From IMG/VR virus record IMGVR_UViG_3300029258_002750, positions 186,001 through 250,000 of that record: a stretch of DNA of 64,000 nt; one strand, 5' to 3'. Source of the stretch: a virus. The notes under the pieces are model-generated. The model was not told where the DNA came from. It worked only from the letters and a program-made list of their open reading frames with translations, and made no database searches. Position numbers and translations under genes: made by a program. Positions 22,080-53,085 of this stretch are shown piece after piece (the stretch's first letter is position 1; every line of letters starts with the position of its first letter).

Positions 22080-22565
22080 ATGGCTCGTGCAGCGTCCACT
22101 GATCCGTATTTGAACTACAGGTTTCACGTGGTCGATCCGGCCGGGGGGCATCTCGATCCCGTCGCCGGGTTCTCGACCGTCTCGACGCCCGAGGTCAGCA
22201 TCGACCCGGCGGAGTACCGCGAGGGCGTGTACCGCTGGACCCGGAAGTACCCGGGCATCCAGACGGTGGGCGAGTGCCAGCTGATGAAGGGCACCGTCCA
22301 GCGCGAGAGCGACTTCTACAAGTGGCTCATCGACGTGATCAACGGCGCGGCGGACACCTACCGCTCCGACCTGATGATCATGGAGTTCCACATCACCGAC
22401 GAGTTCGGGATCGACGGGTCGCCTTCCCGGATCATGCGCCTGCGCGAGTGCTGGCCCTCCACGGTGAAGCCGATGGCGGACAAGGACGCCACCGGCTCCG
22501 AGGTCGCTCTCCAAGAGCTGACCCTCACCGTCGAGGAGCTGGAGGTGGAGATCATCTCGGCGTAG
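22080..22565 (+). CDS. tail tube protein (T4 gp19-like), copy 1
   Basis: A 161-residue protein starts at ATG 22080 after AGGAG. Its length, the opening DPYLNYRFHVVDPAGG, the middle YPGIQTVGECQLMKG, the end CWPSTVKPMADKDATGSEVALQELTLTVEELEV, and the position right after the sheath gene, all fit the T4 gp19 tube family. It forms the hexameric inner tube. A second, divergent homolog is encoded at 23761. Confidence 0.85.
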   Translation: MARAASTDPYLNYRFHVVDPAGGHLDPVAGFSTVSTPEVSIDPAEYREGVYRWTRKYPGIQTVGECQLMKGTVQRESDFYKWLIDVINGAADTYRSDLMIMEFHITDEFGIDGSPSRIMRLRECWPSTVKPMADKDATGSEVALQELTLTVEELEVEIISA

Positions 22566-24292: not shown

Positions 24293-24340
24293 TTGCGCCG
24301 TCCAGCTGCGTGAGGCAGAATGCCTCCTCAAGTGAGGAGG
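24293..24340 (+). promoter_or_regulatory. promoter and palindromic operator/hairpins ahead of the ribbon-helix-helix gene
   Basis: TTGCGC (24293-24298) and CAGAAT (24316-24321) are 17 bases apart. Two inverted repeats follow and overlap each other: GAGGCA-GAA-TGCCTC (24312-24326) and CCTCCTCA-AG-TGAGGAGG (24323-24340). The right arm of the second contains the ribosome binding site for ATG 24349. As DNA this is a good dimer operator. As RNA the two hairpins exclude each other, and one hides the Shine-Dalgarno. Confidence 0.6.
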
Positions 24341-24348
24341 TCTTCCTC

Positions 24349-24834
24349 ATGGAAGCCAGCTTGAAGCCCCGTCTCAACTTTGTCATTCCAGAGGACTTAG
24401 ACGACACGCTCGCGTCCTACTGCGAGGAGACCGGCCGCTCCCAGAGTGAGGTCATCCGCCAGGTCGTGCTGGAGTGGCTCGACGGGGACAGGCGCCTGCC
24501 CGCGCCCGCGCGTGTGCACCCGTCTGGTCGACGTACCAACATGCAGCTCTCCCACGTCCTCCGGGGCGCTCTGGAGGCCAAAATCAAGGAGGAGGGCCAC
24601 GGGACCATCTCCGCCGTGATCGAGGCTCTCCTGCGCTCCTACGTGGCCCACAGGGGCAACGGAGGGGACGGCACGACCATCGTTCGGGTCGCTCTCCCGA
24701 CCGGGGTCTACGACGAGCTGTTCGTCTTCTGCCAGCGTTGGGGATGGACCGTCGCAGACGGTCTCAAGGTGCTGGCCGAGAGTCCAGAGAGGTTCGAGCG
24801 CTTGGTGAGGTACGCGCTCGAGAAGGAGGCATAA
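24349..24834 (+). CDS. double ribbon-helix-helix DNA-binding regulator
   Basis: ATG 24349 lies eight bases after GAGGAGG and gives 161 residues. A GTG at 24310 would place the start inside the palindromes and is less likely. Residues about 5-45 read LKPRLNFVIPEDLDDTLASY, then ETGRSQSEVIRQVVLEW, a typical ribbon-helix-helix. A second copy-like unit follows at about 110-150 (TTIVRVALPTGVYDELFVF). Such proteins bind palindromes as dimers and often repress their own genes, and the palindrome over its own Shine-Dalgarno fits autoregulation. The gene ends four bases from the remnant start of the tail-chaperone gene. Confidence 0.7.
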   Translation: MEASLKPRLNFVIPEDLDDTLASYCEETGRSQSEVIRQVVLEWLDGDRRLPAPARVHPSGRRTNMQLSHVLRGALEAKIKEEGHGTISAVIEALLRSYVAHRGNGGDGTTIVRVALPTGVYDELFVFCQRWGWTVADGLKVLAESPERFERLVRYALEKEA

Positions 24835-24894
24835 GTGCCAGGAATTGTTGATGTTCCGGGGGTAGAGGTGTTCGGCAAGGGCCGTGGGCGATGA
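24835..24894 (+). pseudogene. orphaned 5' end of the tail assembly chaperone gene
   Basis: GTG 24835 abuts the preceding TAA and has a perfect AAGGAGG five bases upstream, the usual operon arrangement of this phage. It encodes only VPGIVDVPGVEVFGKGRGR before TGA. The same peptide with one Lys to Arg change begins the intact gene at 26240, but 14 of the 17 shared codons differ, nearly all at the third base. I read this as the original 5' end, cut off by insertion of the cassette. It may also act now as a leader peptide coupled by ATGA to 24891. Confidence 0.75.
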
Positions 24895-25226
24895 AGGACT
24901 ACGCCCGGGACGACAACGGCGACATCGTGCTCCGCGCCTACGAGATTCCCTATCGGCCGCAGTACGTGCTCACGTTCACGCCGGGCGAGTTCGGCCCGGA
25001 CGCTAGCTCGCTACCGTCTGGGGAGTGGGACCAGGACTACCCCGGCTTTCGCTTCCACCTGTCGCCCGAAGCGCTGGCGCTGGTCGCCGAGCAGGGCGCC
25101 AACCGAGATGACGGGTTCCAGCGGATCGAGGTCATCTGGGATGCCACGGACCCCGGTCCGGTGAAGCTCCGAGCGACGCAGGCTGTGACCGAGGAGCAGC
25201 TCGCTTCTTTGGGAGGGGGCGACTAA
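24891..25226 (+). CDS. hypothetical acidic protein in the homing cassette
   Basis: A 111-residue protein whose ATG 24891 overlaps the stop of the orphaned 5' end in an ATGA, so its translation is probably coupled to the old ribosome binding site. It is acidic and strand-rich (YVLTFTPGEFGPDASSLPSGE, FQRIEVIWDATDPGPVKLRA). No family recognised. It could be cargo of the cassette or a resident gene captured between the two copies. Confidence 0.6.
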   Translation: MKDYARDDNGDIVLRAYEIPYRPQYVLTFTPGEFGPDASSLPSGEWDQDYPGFRFHLSPEALALVAEQGANRDDGFQRIEVIWDATDPGPVKLRATQAVTEEQLASLGGGD

Positions 25227-25236
25227 GTGCTACTAT
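25209..25236 (+). promoter_or_regulatory. putative promoter of the cassette endonuclease
   Basis: TTGGGA (25209-25214) and TACTAT (25231-25236) are 16 bases apart, overlapping the end of the 111-residue gene. ATG 25260 with GGAGG at 25250-25254 lies just downstream, so the endonuclease may have its own promoter. Confidence 0.4.
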
Positions 25237-25259
25237 GTCTGCGGAAACGCGGAGGTAGT

Positions 25260-26255
25260 ATGGGACGCCCGAGGACCAACGTGTCTGCGGCGAAGCGTGC
25301 CGAGGTGCGCTGTCGATACAAGGCCGGAGCTACGCTGGATGAGGTCTCGGCTGCGACTGGGTTGTCCGTCTGGCTCGTCCGTCGCGAGCTGGGGCGCACG
25401 CGCCGTCATCCGGCACGCAAGCGGCATCTGTTCGCGGATGATCCGAGCGCGCGGGCCGAGATTGTCAGTCGCTACGAGGCCGGGGAGTCGGTCAACTGGT
25501 TGGCCGAGTGGTTCGAGTGCTCGGCGAGCCCGATCAAGCGCGTGCTGCTCGAAGAGGGTGTCGATGTTCGCGGACGAGACAGGTGTCGCGGCTTCACCTT
25601 CCGCGATCGGCTGGGTCGCGTGTTCTTCTTCCGATCTTCGTGGGAGGCGAAGACCGCCGCCTGGCTCGATGCGCGCAGGTTCAACTGGGACTACGAGGTC
25701 GAGCAGTTCGACGACTACCTGCCGGACTTCTGGATCTACAACAGCGGTGGCGAGATCGACTACTTGATCGAGGTCAAAGGCTGGCTCTCCCCGGAGGGTG
25801 CCGAGAAGATCGAGCGCTTTCGGGAGAGGCATTCAGAGATCAGATTGAAGCTGTGGCGCAAGGCCCAGCTGAAGAGGCGCGGGATCTTGGACCTACGACC
25901 GGAGACGCTAGTCGATCACAGGTTCCGCACGCGCATGAATCGGGCGGTGCGCAAGCAGATCATCAAGCTCTACGAGAGCGGCATGTCGGCGATCGAGGTT
26001 GGACGCGAGGTCGGGCGTGCGAAGTCGAGTGTGCTGCGTGTGCTCCACATCGCCGGTGTGGTTCGCGGTGTGTCCGAAGCCAAGCTGCTCAACTCCAGCT
26101 TCGCACCATCGAAGAGAAACAAAGCGGAACAGCTCTACAGGAAGGGGCTGTCGCTGAACGAGGTGTCAGAGAAGATCGGTGTTCCGTTGGGCACCGTCTA
26201 CGACGAGTTACGCAAGCGAGGCGTGGTCAGGAGGAAAGCGTGCCGGGGATCGTAG
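25260..26255 (+). CDS. PD-(D/E)xK homing endonuclease with four helix-turn-helix units
   Basis: ATG 25260 is six bases after GGAGG and gives 331 residues. An upstream GTG at 25227 lacks a binding site. The nuclease core is at about 112-200: FRSSWEAKTAAWL with E129, DDYLPDFWIY with D156, and LIEVKGW with E171-x-K173. This is the pattern of the PD-(D/E)xK or Vsr-like homing nucleases. Resolvase-like helix-turn-helix units lie on each side, at about 9-45, 64-100, 228-265 and 286-320, and would read a long DNA site. The last five codons overlap the start of the tail-chaperone gene. Expected target is the uninterrupted chaperone gene near codons 18-19. Confidence 0.8.
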   Translation: MGRPRTNVSAAKRAEVRCRYKAGATLDEVSAATGLSVWLVRRELGRTRRHPARKRHLFADDPSARAEIVSRYEAGESVNWLAEWFECSASPIKRVLLEEGVDVRGRDRCRGFTFRDRLGRVFFFRSSWEAKTAAWLDARRFNWDYEVEQFDDYLPDFWIYNSGGEIDYLIEVKGWLSPEGAEKIERFRERHSEIRLKLWRKAQLKRRGILDLRPETLVDHRFRTRMNRAVRKQIIKLYESGMSAIEVGREVGRAKSSVLRVLHIAGVVRGVSEAKLLNSSFAPSKRNKAEQLYRKGLSLNEVSEKIGVPLGTVYDELRKRGVVRRKACRGS

Positions 26256-27139
26256 ACGTACCGGGTGTTGAAGTATTTGGGCGTGGTAGGGGGCAGTACC
26301 AACTCCCCTGCGGTTACGTGGACGAGCAGGGCAAGGTCCACAAGACCATCGTCCTCCGTGAGATGACCGGCACGGAGGAAGACATCATGGACGATGACGA
26401 GCTGCCTGTTCACGAGCGGACAACCATGCTCCTCTCGGCCTGCTGCGAGAAGATCGGCAACGAGACCGATCCTGAGAAGATCAAGGCGATCATCGGTGAC
26501 GACCTGAAGGCGGGTCTGCCGATCACGTCGTCGGACCGGCTGGCGATGCGGATCTTCCTCCGCCGCTGCTCCTGCGGTGACGTCTACAAGTTCGAGCGGA
26601 CGTGCCCGCGCTGCGGCCACCTGAACAAGAACAAGCAGCTCGACCTGCGGACGATCGAGATGACCGAGGTCCCCGAGGATCGGGTGTCGAAGCGCCGCGT
26701 CGAGGTCGTGCTCCGCCGGTCCGGCCGGAAGGCGATCGTGCGCGTGCTGACGGCCAGCCACGAGGAGAAGCTCACGGGCCTGAGCCTGAACCAGAAGGAT
26801 CTGCGGTCCTACGCGATCCTCGCCAGGCTCGAGCAGCTCGAGGTCGAGACAGAAGTTCCTGGGGCTGACGGTCAGCCACCACAGAAGCAGAAGCAGATGA
26901 TCACGCTCGGCGATCCGAAGCGAGACCTGGATCTGGTGAAGGCGCTCCCGAAGGACGACCGGAACCATCTCCGCGAGGTCTACAACGCGATGGAGGCCGA
27001 CGTGGACACGAGCGTCCAGGTCAGCTGCCAGGGCCGCCTCTGCAACTGCGAGTTCGAGTTCCCGCTCGACCTGGGGCAGGCTTTTTTCTCGAACACGGGA
27101 GCCGAGCCTGTTACGGCCGAGGGGCTGAACTGGTTGTAG
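26240..27139 (+). CDS. tail assembly chaperone (T4 baseplate gp26/gp51-like), unshifted form
   Basis: GTG 26240, five bases after AGGAGG, gives 299 residues. A longer in-frame reading runs back into the endonuclease gene and is not credible. The protein has the layout of myovirus tail chaperones related to T4 baseplate proteins. The N-terminus has LREMTGTEEDIM, then DRLAMRIFLRRCSCGDVYKF and TCPRCGH form a zinc ribbon at about residues 105-128, and a Cys cluster CQGRLCNCEFEF lies near residue 262. It precedes the tape measure gene, as expected. A slippery T TTT TTC near its end allows a longer product. Its first 18 codons are the recoded copy described at 24835. Confidence 0.8.
   Translation: MPGIVDVPGVEVFGRGRGQYQLPCGYVDEQGKVHKTIVLREMTGTEEDIMDDDELPVHERTTMLLSACCEKIGNETDPEKIKAIIGDDLKAGLPITSSDRLAMRIFLRRCSCGDVYKFERTCPRCGHLNKNKQLDLRTIEMTEVPEDRVSKRRVEVVLRRSGRKAIVRVLTASHEEKLTGLSLNQKDLRSYAILARLEQLEVETEVPGADGQPPQKQKQMITLGDPKRDLDLVKALPKDDRNHLREVYNAMEADVDTSVQVSCQGRLCNCEFEFPLDLGQAFFSNTGAEPVTAEGLNWL
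27082..27088 (+). promoter_or_regulatory. -1 ribosomal frameshift site (T TTT TTC)
   Basis: In the chaperone frame the sequence reads GC T TTT TTC TCG, a canonical XXXYYYZ heptamer. The -1 frame is open from here to 27423 without a stop, crossing the zero-frame stop at 27137-27139. Tail chaperone genes upstream of tape measure genes (lambda G/GT, P2 E/E') use such a site, so position and sequence agree. Confidence 0.8.
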
Positions 27140-50931: not shown

Positions 50932-53085
50932 GTGACGACCATCATCGCGAAGAACCAGACCGCAGGCGACCTCGCGCTCACGCGCTTGGTTGCGCCCGAT
51001 GCCAAGATCCCGGCGAGCGGCCAGGCCCAGCTGACCGACTGGAACGCGCCCTACGAGATCACGATCGACCCGGAGCTGGTCGCCTACATCAACGCCGACC
51101 AGGTGCTCCTGAACATCGACGGCGTGGACCTGACCAAGGCGGAGAGCCTGACGGCCGCCGAGCAGAAGGTCGCGGGCACGAACATCGGCAACCTGGTCGA
51201 GGTTGTGGATGTTGGCGGAAGTGTCGCCGGACTACCGGCGCTGGACGGCTCCTTGCTCACCAATCTGGCGGCCTCCGGCGCCTACCGGCTTCCCCCGAAC
51301 CTCGTGCTGGTGGATCCAGCCCAGCCAGCCCTGGTCGGGGTTCGATACCAGACATGGGCCGCCGCCGACACCTACGTGGCAACGCAAACACCGTCCTCCA
51401 CGAACAGGTGGGGCATCCAGATCACCGGCACGAACAGCGAGAACATCGTCGTGCGCCCGTGGGTGGTCATCGTGGGGATGCCAGAAGGGTCCACGAGGCT
51501 CACCGGCAACCTGACCTCGACGGTCAGCTTCAACGGCACAGGCGACCCCACCATCGGGCTCGTGCGCGAGTGCGAAGTCGCCAGTCTCGCTTTCTCGGCC
51601 GCGAACGAGTGGACCATCTTCCACAACTGCAAGCTGACGGGAGGAACTCCCACCGGAGGTTGGTGCCGACTCGACCATTGCCGCGTGGATGGCGGCAACT
51701 ACTTCAACATGGATCTGATGCAGATCTACCGCAGCATCGTCGATGGTTCCGGCGGCGGCTTCCCGGACGTGGTCCAGGCGCACTGGACCAGGTTCGCGTC
51801 GAACTACACCCTGCGGGGCGGCAACTTCAACTTCTGCGAGATCTTCATCGGCGGCACCACAACCTACCTGGCCGGGAGCTACACGCTCTGGAACTGCGTC
51901 AGCTACGCTGCGCTGAACGCGGCCAGCGCCGGGCATCGGATCAGGATTCTCAACACCATCCTGGTGGGAAACCCCACGATCACCCTCAACCCCGGTGACC
52001 TGACCACGCGCTCGGTCGTGGGGGACTTCGCCGTCTCTAACACAGGCGGCAACTGGACCAACGAGGGCGACTTCTACGACAACACGGCCTCCGGCCTCGC
52101 GGCGGATGAGGTCCAGGCGGCCATCGACGAGATCGTGGCCGGTCTGCCCACTGGCGATGTCGTCGGGCCGGGAAGCTCGACTACCAACAACGTGCCCCAG
52201 TTTGCGGACACGTCCGGCAAGCTCCTGAAGGATGGGCTGACGCCTGGCGGCGCAAATGGTCTGGCCACGCTCAACTCGGGCAGCAAGGTACCGCTGATCC
52301 AGCTCCCAGCTTCGCAGACGCCAGCTGTGGACACGATTCCCGTCTCTGGCTCGGTTCAGCCCACGATCAACCCAGGTTGGCTCCCGGGCGCGTCCGAGAG
52401 CGCGCAGGGCGCTATCGAGATCGCCACCCAGACCGAGACCGACACCGGCACGGACAATACGCGTGCTGTTACTCCGCTCAAGCTAGCTGGTCGAACGGCT
52501 ACAGAAACGCGCGCTGGTATTGCCGAGCTTGCGACTCAGGCCGAGACGGATACCGGTACAGACGATGCCAGGATCGTCACCCCGCTCAAGCTCAAGGGAA
52601 GGGTGCCGCGCACGGACTTCGGCGCATCGGCCAGTGACCCAGCCGGGTCTCCTGTTGACGGGGACATCTACTACAACACGGCGCTCGACAAGGAAATGCG
52701 ATACGACGCGACGAGAGCTAAGTGGCTTTCGGTTGCCGAGGCCGCCTACCAGTTCGGCCGCAACGGAGACACGCCTAGCGGCTCGTTCTATCGCGGTATC
52801 AACGGGCTTGCGTTTTCTGCTACGCGGGGGCTGACTATGCCGCATGACGGAACAATTGTCGCCCTGGGCTATCACCGGGATGATTCAGATGCTGCAACCT
52901 TTGCGATTAGAAACAATACGACAGCAAGCGTCGTTGTGACAGTCGCCTCGACCGCTAACAAGGGAGTTGACTCGTCACTGAACGCTAACTTCTCGGCCCA
53001 GGACGTTCTCGCTCCCGGCAACAATACGGGCTCTAATACGACCTCCAATGTAATCGGCTGGTTCAAGGTCAAATGGAGGGTGTAG
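50932..53085 (+). CDS. tail fibre protein, probable beta-helix, with repeat region
   Basis: A 717-residue protein, GTG 50932. The N-terminal 60 residues are shared with the gene at 53089 (TIIAKNQTAGDL, VLLNIDG). Residues about 130-380 show beta-helix-like short repeats (FNGTGDPTIGLVRECEVASL, NFNFCEIFIGGTTTYLAGSY). Two units TETDTGTDNTRAVTPLKLAG and AETDTGTDDARIVTPLKL follow at about 500-560, and the C-terminal tip resembles that of 50085. The region from about 52450 on becomes AT-richer than its neighbours. Confidence 0.7.
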   Translation: MTTIIAKNQTAGDLALTRLVAPDAKIPASGQAQLTDWNAPYEITIDPELVAYINADQVLLNIDGVDLTKAESLTAAEQKVAGTNIGNLVEVVDVGGSVAGLPALDGSLLTNLAASGAYRLPPNLVLVDPAQPALVGVRYQTWAAADTYVATQTPSSTNRWGIQITGTNSENIVVRPWVVIVGMPEGSTRLTGNLTSTVSFNGTGDPTIGLVRECEVASLAFSAANEWTIFHNCKLTGGTPTGGWCRLDHCRVDGGNYFNMDLMQIYRSIVDGSGGGFPDVVQAHWTRFASNYTLRGGNFNFCEIFIGGTTTYLAGSYTLWNCVSYAALNAASAGHRIRILNTILVGNPTITLNPGDLTTRSVVGDFAVSNTGGNWTNEGDFYDNTASGLAADEVQAAIDEIVAGLPTGDVVGPGSSTTNNVPQFADTSGKLLKDGLTPGGANGLATLNSGSKVPLIQLPASQTPAVDTIPVSGSVQPTINPGWLPGASESAQGAIEIATQTETDTGTDNTRAVTPLKLAGRTATETRAGIAELATQAETDTGTDDARIVTPLKLKGRVPRTDFGASASDPAGSPVDGDIYYNTALDKEMRYDATRAKWLSVAEAAYQFGRNGDTPSGSFYRGINGLAFSATRGLTMPHDGTIVALGYHRDDSDAATFAIRNNTTASVVVTVASTANKGVDSSLNANFSAQDVLAPGNNTGSNTTSNVIGWFKVKWRV

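Follow-up and report, generated by a model that had tools for sequence, protein, structure and literature searches.

A phage tail gene whose 5′ end is replaced by a synonymously recoded copy: a candidate homing endonuclease cassette

Engineered recoded-rescue, or cleave-and-rescue, drives combine a nuclease, usually Cas9-guided, with a recoded and uncleavable version of its own target. Mobile ORFs that replace the end of the gene they occupy are known from fungal mitochondria, at atp6 of Allomyces and at atp6, atp9, cox2, and nad3 of Glomus, and duplicated host-gene ends have also been described for introns of Tremella (PMC3630166, PMC7315562). In these fungal elements the native end is 91–98% like that of relatives, and the inserted end is 64–81% alike in DNA with a nearly identical protein (PMC3630166, PMC7315562). 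The free-standing endonucleases of phage T4 are intergenic, and their cut sites are hundreds to thousands of bp distant (PMC2988022). F-CphI, which together with mobE represents collaborative or trans homing, has an Endo VII-type catalytic motif, not PD-(D/E)xK (PMC6083498). The hidden HNH element of ShiLan, located in a phage methylase gene, is a homing insertion in a coding gene that is neither intron nor intein (PMC11855218). A first-pass annotation of the DNA treated here named the fungal mitochondrial elements as the known counterpart and stated that none was known for a phage 5′ end with this degree of recoding; the limited open-access literature searched likewise yielded no recoded gene end in a phage.

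Here we describe such a locus in a 64,000-nt window of a 275-kb virus record (IMGVR_UViG_3300029258_002750, hereafter G000), which comprises the following features.

24310–24834, + strand: RHH/CopG-type gene (Pfam RHH_1, E 3.5e-10), the native upstream operon neighbor of the target gene
24823–24829, + strand: AAGGAGG, the target gene's native Shine-Dalgarno sequence, which the orphaned 5′ copy now uses; the same AAGGAGG is found in L004
24835–24894, + strand: orphaned native 5′ copy, a 19-codon ORF with GTG start at 24835, reading VPGIVDVPGVEVFGKGRGR and then a stop
24883–26287, + strand: inserted cassette of 1405 bp between target codons 16 and 17, from alignment to the empty sites of L004 and L005, with boundaries ambiguous by a few bases
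24891–25226, + strand: 111-aa ORF, cassette cargo, full-length only in contigs of the same lineage
25260–26255, + strand: gene of a predicted 331-aa nuclease, ATG at 25260, with its own GGAGG
26229–26234, + strand: new Shine-Dalgarno sequence AGGAGG of the restored gene, read from the sequence
26240–26293, + strand: recoded 5′ copy, anomalous at codons 2–16 and from codon 17 as in cassette-free relatives
26240–27139, + strand: restored target gene, 299 aa, GTG start at 26240, PF12322-like, ahead of the tape-measure gene

Judged from this layout, the cassette would work like a fungal replacement-end mobile ORF without being a member of that group. Common to both are an endonuclease-type ORF inside a gene, the retention of both gene ends, a native copy resembling that of relatives, and an inserted copy diverged in DNA and not in protein. 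The fungal elements, however, are mitochondrial and carry LAGLIDADG or GIY-YIG nucleases, and those of Glomus and Allomyces replace the 3′ end, the foreign end being read as an import, whereas the window element occupies the 5′ end of a phage tail gene, encodes a predicted HTH/PD-(D/E)xK nuclease, and has taken over the start signals as well. With the Seg and Mob endonucleases of T4, known for intronless homing, it shares an intron-less nuclease-type gene, a phage host, and the use of a neighboring operon's expression signals; unlike those intergenic genes, the window nuclease gene lies inside the target coding sequence and comes with a recoded rescue end. The ShiLan element is also a homing insertion within a phage coding gene, but it is read through in frame and no duplicated or recoded gene end is reported there. 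The engineered drives have the same design of nuclease and recoded target, and differ in being engineered.

The TGA of the orphan copy (24892–24894) overlaps the ATG of the 111-aa ORF (ATGA), and the TAG of the nuclease gene (26253–26255) lies inside the recoded copy, where it is formed by recoded target codon 5 (GTA). The first-pass annotation had rightly placed an endonuclease-type gene between the two copies and reported TAAGTG and AAGGAGG at the upstream one, both of which are present, while overlooking the 111-aa ORF. This ORF has no Pfam, PHROG, or phage match, and its structure model is of low confidence (pLDDT 48), with a fold too poor for use. The target had been called a tail assembly chaperone, an identity that we replace: no tail-chaperone family reached the cut-off in the profile search, and the gene instead is PF12322/PHROG baseplate-hub-like (T4-baseplate-like) by a weak profile score (window, E 2.9e-5; distant homolog L050, E 8e-10). 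The restored protein carries zinc-ribbon-type CxC/CxxC motifs.

A structure model (pLDDT 78) and profiles give the 331-aa nuclease the layout HTH-HTH, PD-(D/E)xK core (residues 112–206), HTH-HTH. Phage relatives, the majority of which have NUMOD3, all share the predicted catalytic residues E129, D156, E171, and K173. Fold matches, including T7 endonuclease I and NucS, are weak and none is significant (E > 0.1); the PD-(D/E)xK core may be T7-endonuclease-I-like. The core had no match in a genome-contig scan, and the phage collection contained no close relative of either the nuclease or the target protein; matches to BcepSauron and BcepSaruman were rejected because only the HTH repeats of a GIY-YIG protein match. 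Duplicated ends are absent from the NUMOD-type nuclease relatives L032–L046.

Codon-by-codon comparison confirms that the first 18 codons of the target gene occur twice, at 24835 and 26240, with the codon differences described in the first-pass annotation. Seventeen of the 18 residues are the same (K15R is the sole exception), and 14 of the 16 identical residues beyond the start use different codons: 13 codons differ at the third base only, Arg17 is CGT upstream vs. AGG downstream, and only Val1, Pro8, and Gly18 share a codon. The longest exact in-register match is 5 nt. When G000 was scanned frame by frame for protein-level repeats of low DNA identity, the window pair ranked highest across the 275 kb (15/16 residues, 62% DNA identity), and the whole-genome scan returned no other recoded repeat; scan matches in L064, L010, and L017 were rejected as internal to longer ORFs. 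The peptide pattern, for which similarity in many unlinked genes had been considered, was found at this locus only among the viral contigs searched. The peptides at the start of two adjacent genes of the window, at 50932 and 53089, are almost alike (MTTIIAKNQTAGDL; 9 of 42 nt differ); the likeness extends past the start, and the genes are probably tandem paralogs.

Which of the two copies is native can be read from relatives lacking the cassette. In L004 and L005, whose target protein is about 90% identical, the RHH gene is directly followed by the target gene, which begins GTG CCA GGG ATC GTT GAT GTT CCA GGG GTG GAA GTG TTC GGC AAG GGC AGG GGG CAG TAC. At codons 5–16 the upstream copy agrees with this empty allele at 9 of 12 positions and the downstream copy at 1 of 12, as expected from the first-pass annotation, in which cassette-free relatives were to carry the upstream version. 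Measured against the empty allele, the downstream copy has 12 of 15 codons altered within codons 2–16, compared with 67 of 282 thereafter (Fisher P 1.4e-5), whereas the upstream copy differs at 5 of 15, near background; within codons 2–17, the downstream copy differs at all 10 codons where the upstream copy equals the empty allele. The upstream copy is thus native, and recoding is confined to the stretch before the junction. The change of codon pattern at 16/17 marks the insertion point and therefore defines the insert of 1405 bp, which moves the junction from the previously proposed codon 18–19. The same uninterrupted order, with the RHH gene immediately ahead, is seen in L050, whose target protein is 38% identical with strong residue differences in the 5′ region, and since this distant homolog shares it, the gene without insert is ancestral.

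Conversely, L004 and L005 carry a cassette where the window has none, at the tail-tube gene.

22080–22565, + strand: tail-tube gene of the window, the empty counterpart of the site that the second cassette occupies in L004 and L005; Pfam gp19 on the L004 ortholog

A nuclease homologous to that of the window (31% over 229 aa) sits at this gene in L004 and L005, starting with the native tube start ATG GCT CGT GCA GCG TCC, which matches the window's uninterrupted tube gene at 18/18 nt. Behind the nuclease, the L004 tube gene begins ATG GCC CGC GCT GCA AGT ACA and then follows the window sequence again, so that all 6 codons before the junction are changed, compared with 33 of 154 beyond it (P 1.5e-4); Ser6 shows a three-base change, TCC to AGT. 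Occupied and empty alleles of the exact same site are hence available reciprocally, the target gene being occupied in the window and empty in L004/L005. One could instead see in the window a chance tandem duplication followed by drift, or a leader peptide with a regulatory role, coupled to the 111-aa ORF, beside an ordinary resident nuclease gene, and the translational coupling of the orphan ORF through its ATGA overlap would fit the latter. The exact empty site in relatives, the ancestral state of the insert-free gene, the recurrence of the design with homologous nucleases at another gene, and the end of the recoding at the junction all speak against it; empty sites and recurrence largely refute this reading, which we regard as very improbable. 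A homing insert with a recoded 5′ replacement, as the first-pass annotation had proposed, is supported in substance by these same observations and strengthened by the recurrence. On L004 we also note an intein that interrupts an AAA/zeta-like ATPase gene in its P-loop (L004:2880–4916, + strand; Pfam Intein_splicing E 1e-8, just below cut-off) and holds on the opposite strand a 236-aa HTH + HNH endonuclease gene (L004:3358–4068, − strand); the phage to which the window belongs also has an apparent intein in its DNA polymerase A gene (L010:1799–4639, G000:C1 40799–43639; Intein_splicing E 1e-7).

A search with both nucleases gave 61 viral loci, the full-length relatives being mostly at the sheath-tube junction, and the same design was found in three more contig groups, in which the upstream copy is native-like. 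In L137, 5 of 6 codons are recoded, with Arg changed from CGC to AGG; in L074–L076, 6 of 8 (Arg AGA to CGT, Leu CTT to TTG); and in L077, 5 of 6 (Arg AGA to CGA). Native-type Arg codons elsewhere (AGA in L078 and L139; CGC in L134, L143, and L147) side with the upstream copy. The L137 nuclease (L137:3350–4189) lacks the region of the first catalytic Glu although its tube gene is still recoded, and is probably a dead or decayed element; it covered too few columns of the alignment to be included in the nuclease tree. Little-recoded duplications also exist (1 of 4 codons in L078, and 2 of 4 in L136, at the second tube gene), and in L081, L082, L092, and L094 nuclease relatives lie beside the tube gene without any duplication. 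The tree, in which some forks are modestly supported, places the window nuclease apart from those of L004 and L074/L077, so that the cassette design either arose several times or is old and has often been lost.

Group I introns (Rfam RF00028) do occur in the tube gene near codon 11–12, directly behind the nuclease gene, in L073 (5726–6012), L074 (5714–5990), and L077 (5570–5846), which lends some appeal to the idea that the window insert is a group I intron or an intein whose second copy takes part in splicing. In the window, however, there is no Rfam match, and the nuclease ORF ends within a recoded copy that has its own ribosome site and start and therefore needs no splicing; we give this idea almost no credence. 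The intron and adjoining nuclease gene sharing the tube-gene 5′ region in L073, L074, and L077 resemble, and possibly are, a collaborative homing arrangement, with the difference that L074 and L077 also carry a recoded 5′ duplication, L073 being without one. In L077 (4635–5579) the nuclease frame is open into the recoded tube exon 1, and an in-frame nuclease-tube reading exists.

We consider it probable that the window insert is a homing cassette that takes over the start of its target and restores the gene with a synonymous, site-destroying 5′ end. The cassette would be of the free-standing homing endonuclease type, and its nuclease would cut the uninterrupted phage tail gene near codon 16/17, where the cassette now lies. 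Repair from a cassette-bearing phage would copy the cassette in, guided by native homology, which on one side covers the upstream gene and codons 1–16 and on the other begins at codon 17. Expression of the cassette genes would then depend on the native start and ribosome site, and the 3′ end of the cassette, being the 5′ end of its own target in other synonymous codons, would restore the full protein. Insertion would split the nuclease site, its left half staying with the orphan and its right half with the gene. If native codons were used for the restoration, the complete site would re-form and the two copies would make a long repeat; a synonymous version would avoid both, which may be why recoding ends at the junction. 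Cleavage at the junction, its loss by recoding, and mobility are what the sequence suggests. Against this account, the carriers of the window cassette all belong to one lineage (99.9–100% identical), with no transfer seen between lineages, L078 and L136 are little recoded, and several tube-side nuclease relatives stand without duplication.

Recoding might alternatively be selected mainly against recombination between the direct copies, through cassette loss or cassette-skipping repair, rather than for escape from cleavage. Exact runs between copies are at most 5–8 nt in the five recoded pairs, and the least recoded duplications (L078 and L136) are also the shortest, at 15 nt too short for efficient recombination. 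Yet L004 and L137, with 18 and 21 nt, are hardly longer and are largely or fully recoded. Without recoding, the native site would in addition be re-formed across the junction, making escape from cleavage necessary anyway if the site is at the junction; we hold a mainly anti-recombination origin to be rather unlikely.

A more serious contender, which we place somewhat short of an even chance, is that the replacement 5′ end was imported from the homologous gene of a diverged phage, immunity being a by-product of ordinary divergence. The fungal precedent favors a foreign origin (PMC3630166), and the short tube copies differ no more than the native starts of unrelated phages (0.67 of same-residue codons; combined P 0.05); for these copies alone a codon saturation test was not significant and we do not claim selection for recoding. 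The window copies behave differently: with 17 of 18 residues kept, the 14 differing codons of 16 exceed the 9.5 expected from random draws of phage codon usage (P 0.01) and the 11 expected when conditioned on the upstream copy (P 0.05). No donor gene was found among viral contigs, where the peptide is confined to this locus, and the distant homolog L050 is strongly different in residues here. A combined test of instances 1–5 (P 0.001–0.02) was a post hoc choice to which we give no weight, and codon counts alone cannot separate selected recoding from the import of a diverged end.

Returning to the homing cassette, we see about an even chance that these loci represent a recurrent phage-specific class of natural recoded-rescue homing elements. 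Within such a class, HTH/PD-(D/E)xK nucleases would enter contractile-tail genes again and again at the 5′ end and appropriate the signals for starting them, and the synonymous replacement ends would have evolved because selection directly favored sequences that neither can be cut nor recombine. In some members a group I intron would share the gene. A basic problem of a homing gene inside an essential gene is to escape its own nuclease without a splicing ribozyme or an intein. The loci described here would show a third solution, the repeatedly used synonymous re-encoding of the gene end, as nature's counterpart to the engineered recoded-rescue drives. From the recoded block adjoining the junction one may then be able to read the probable target of each nuclease, and the design would also suggest a testable way in which endonuclease genes spread and persist in large phages.
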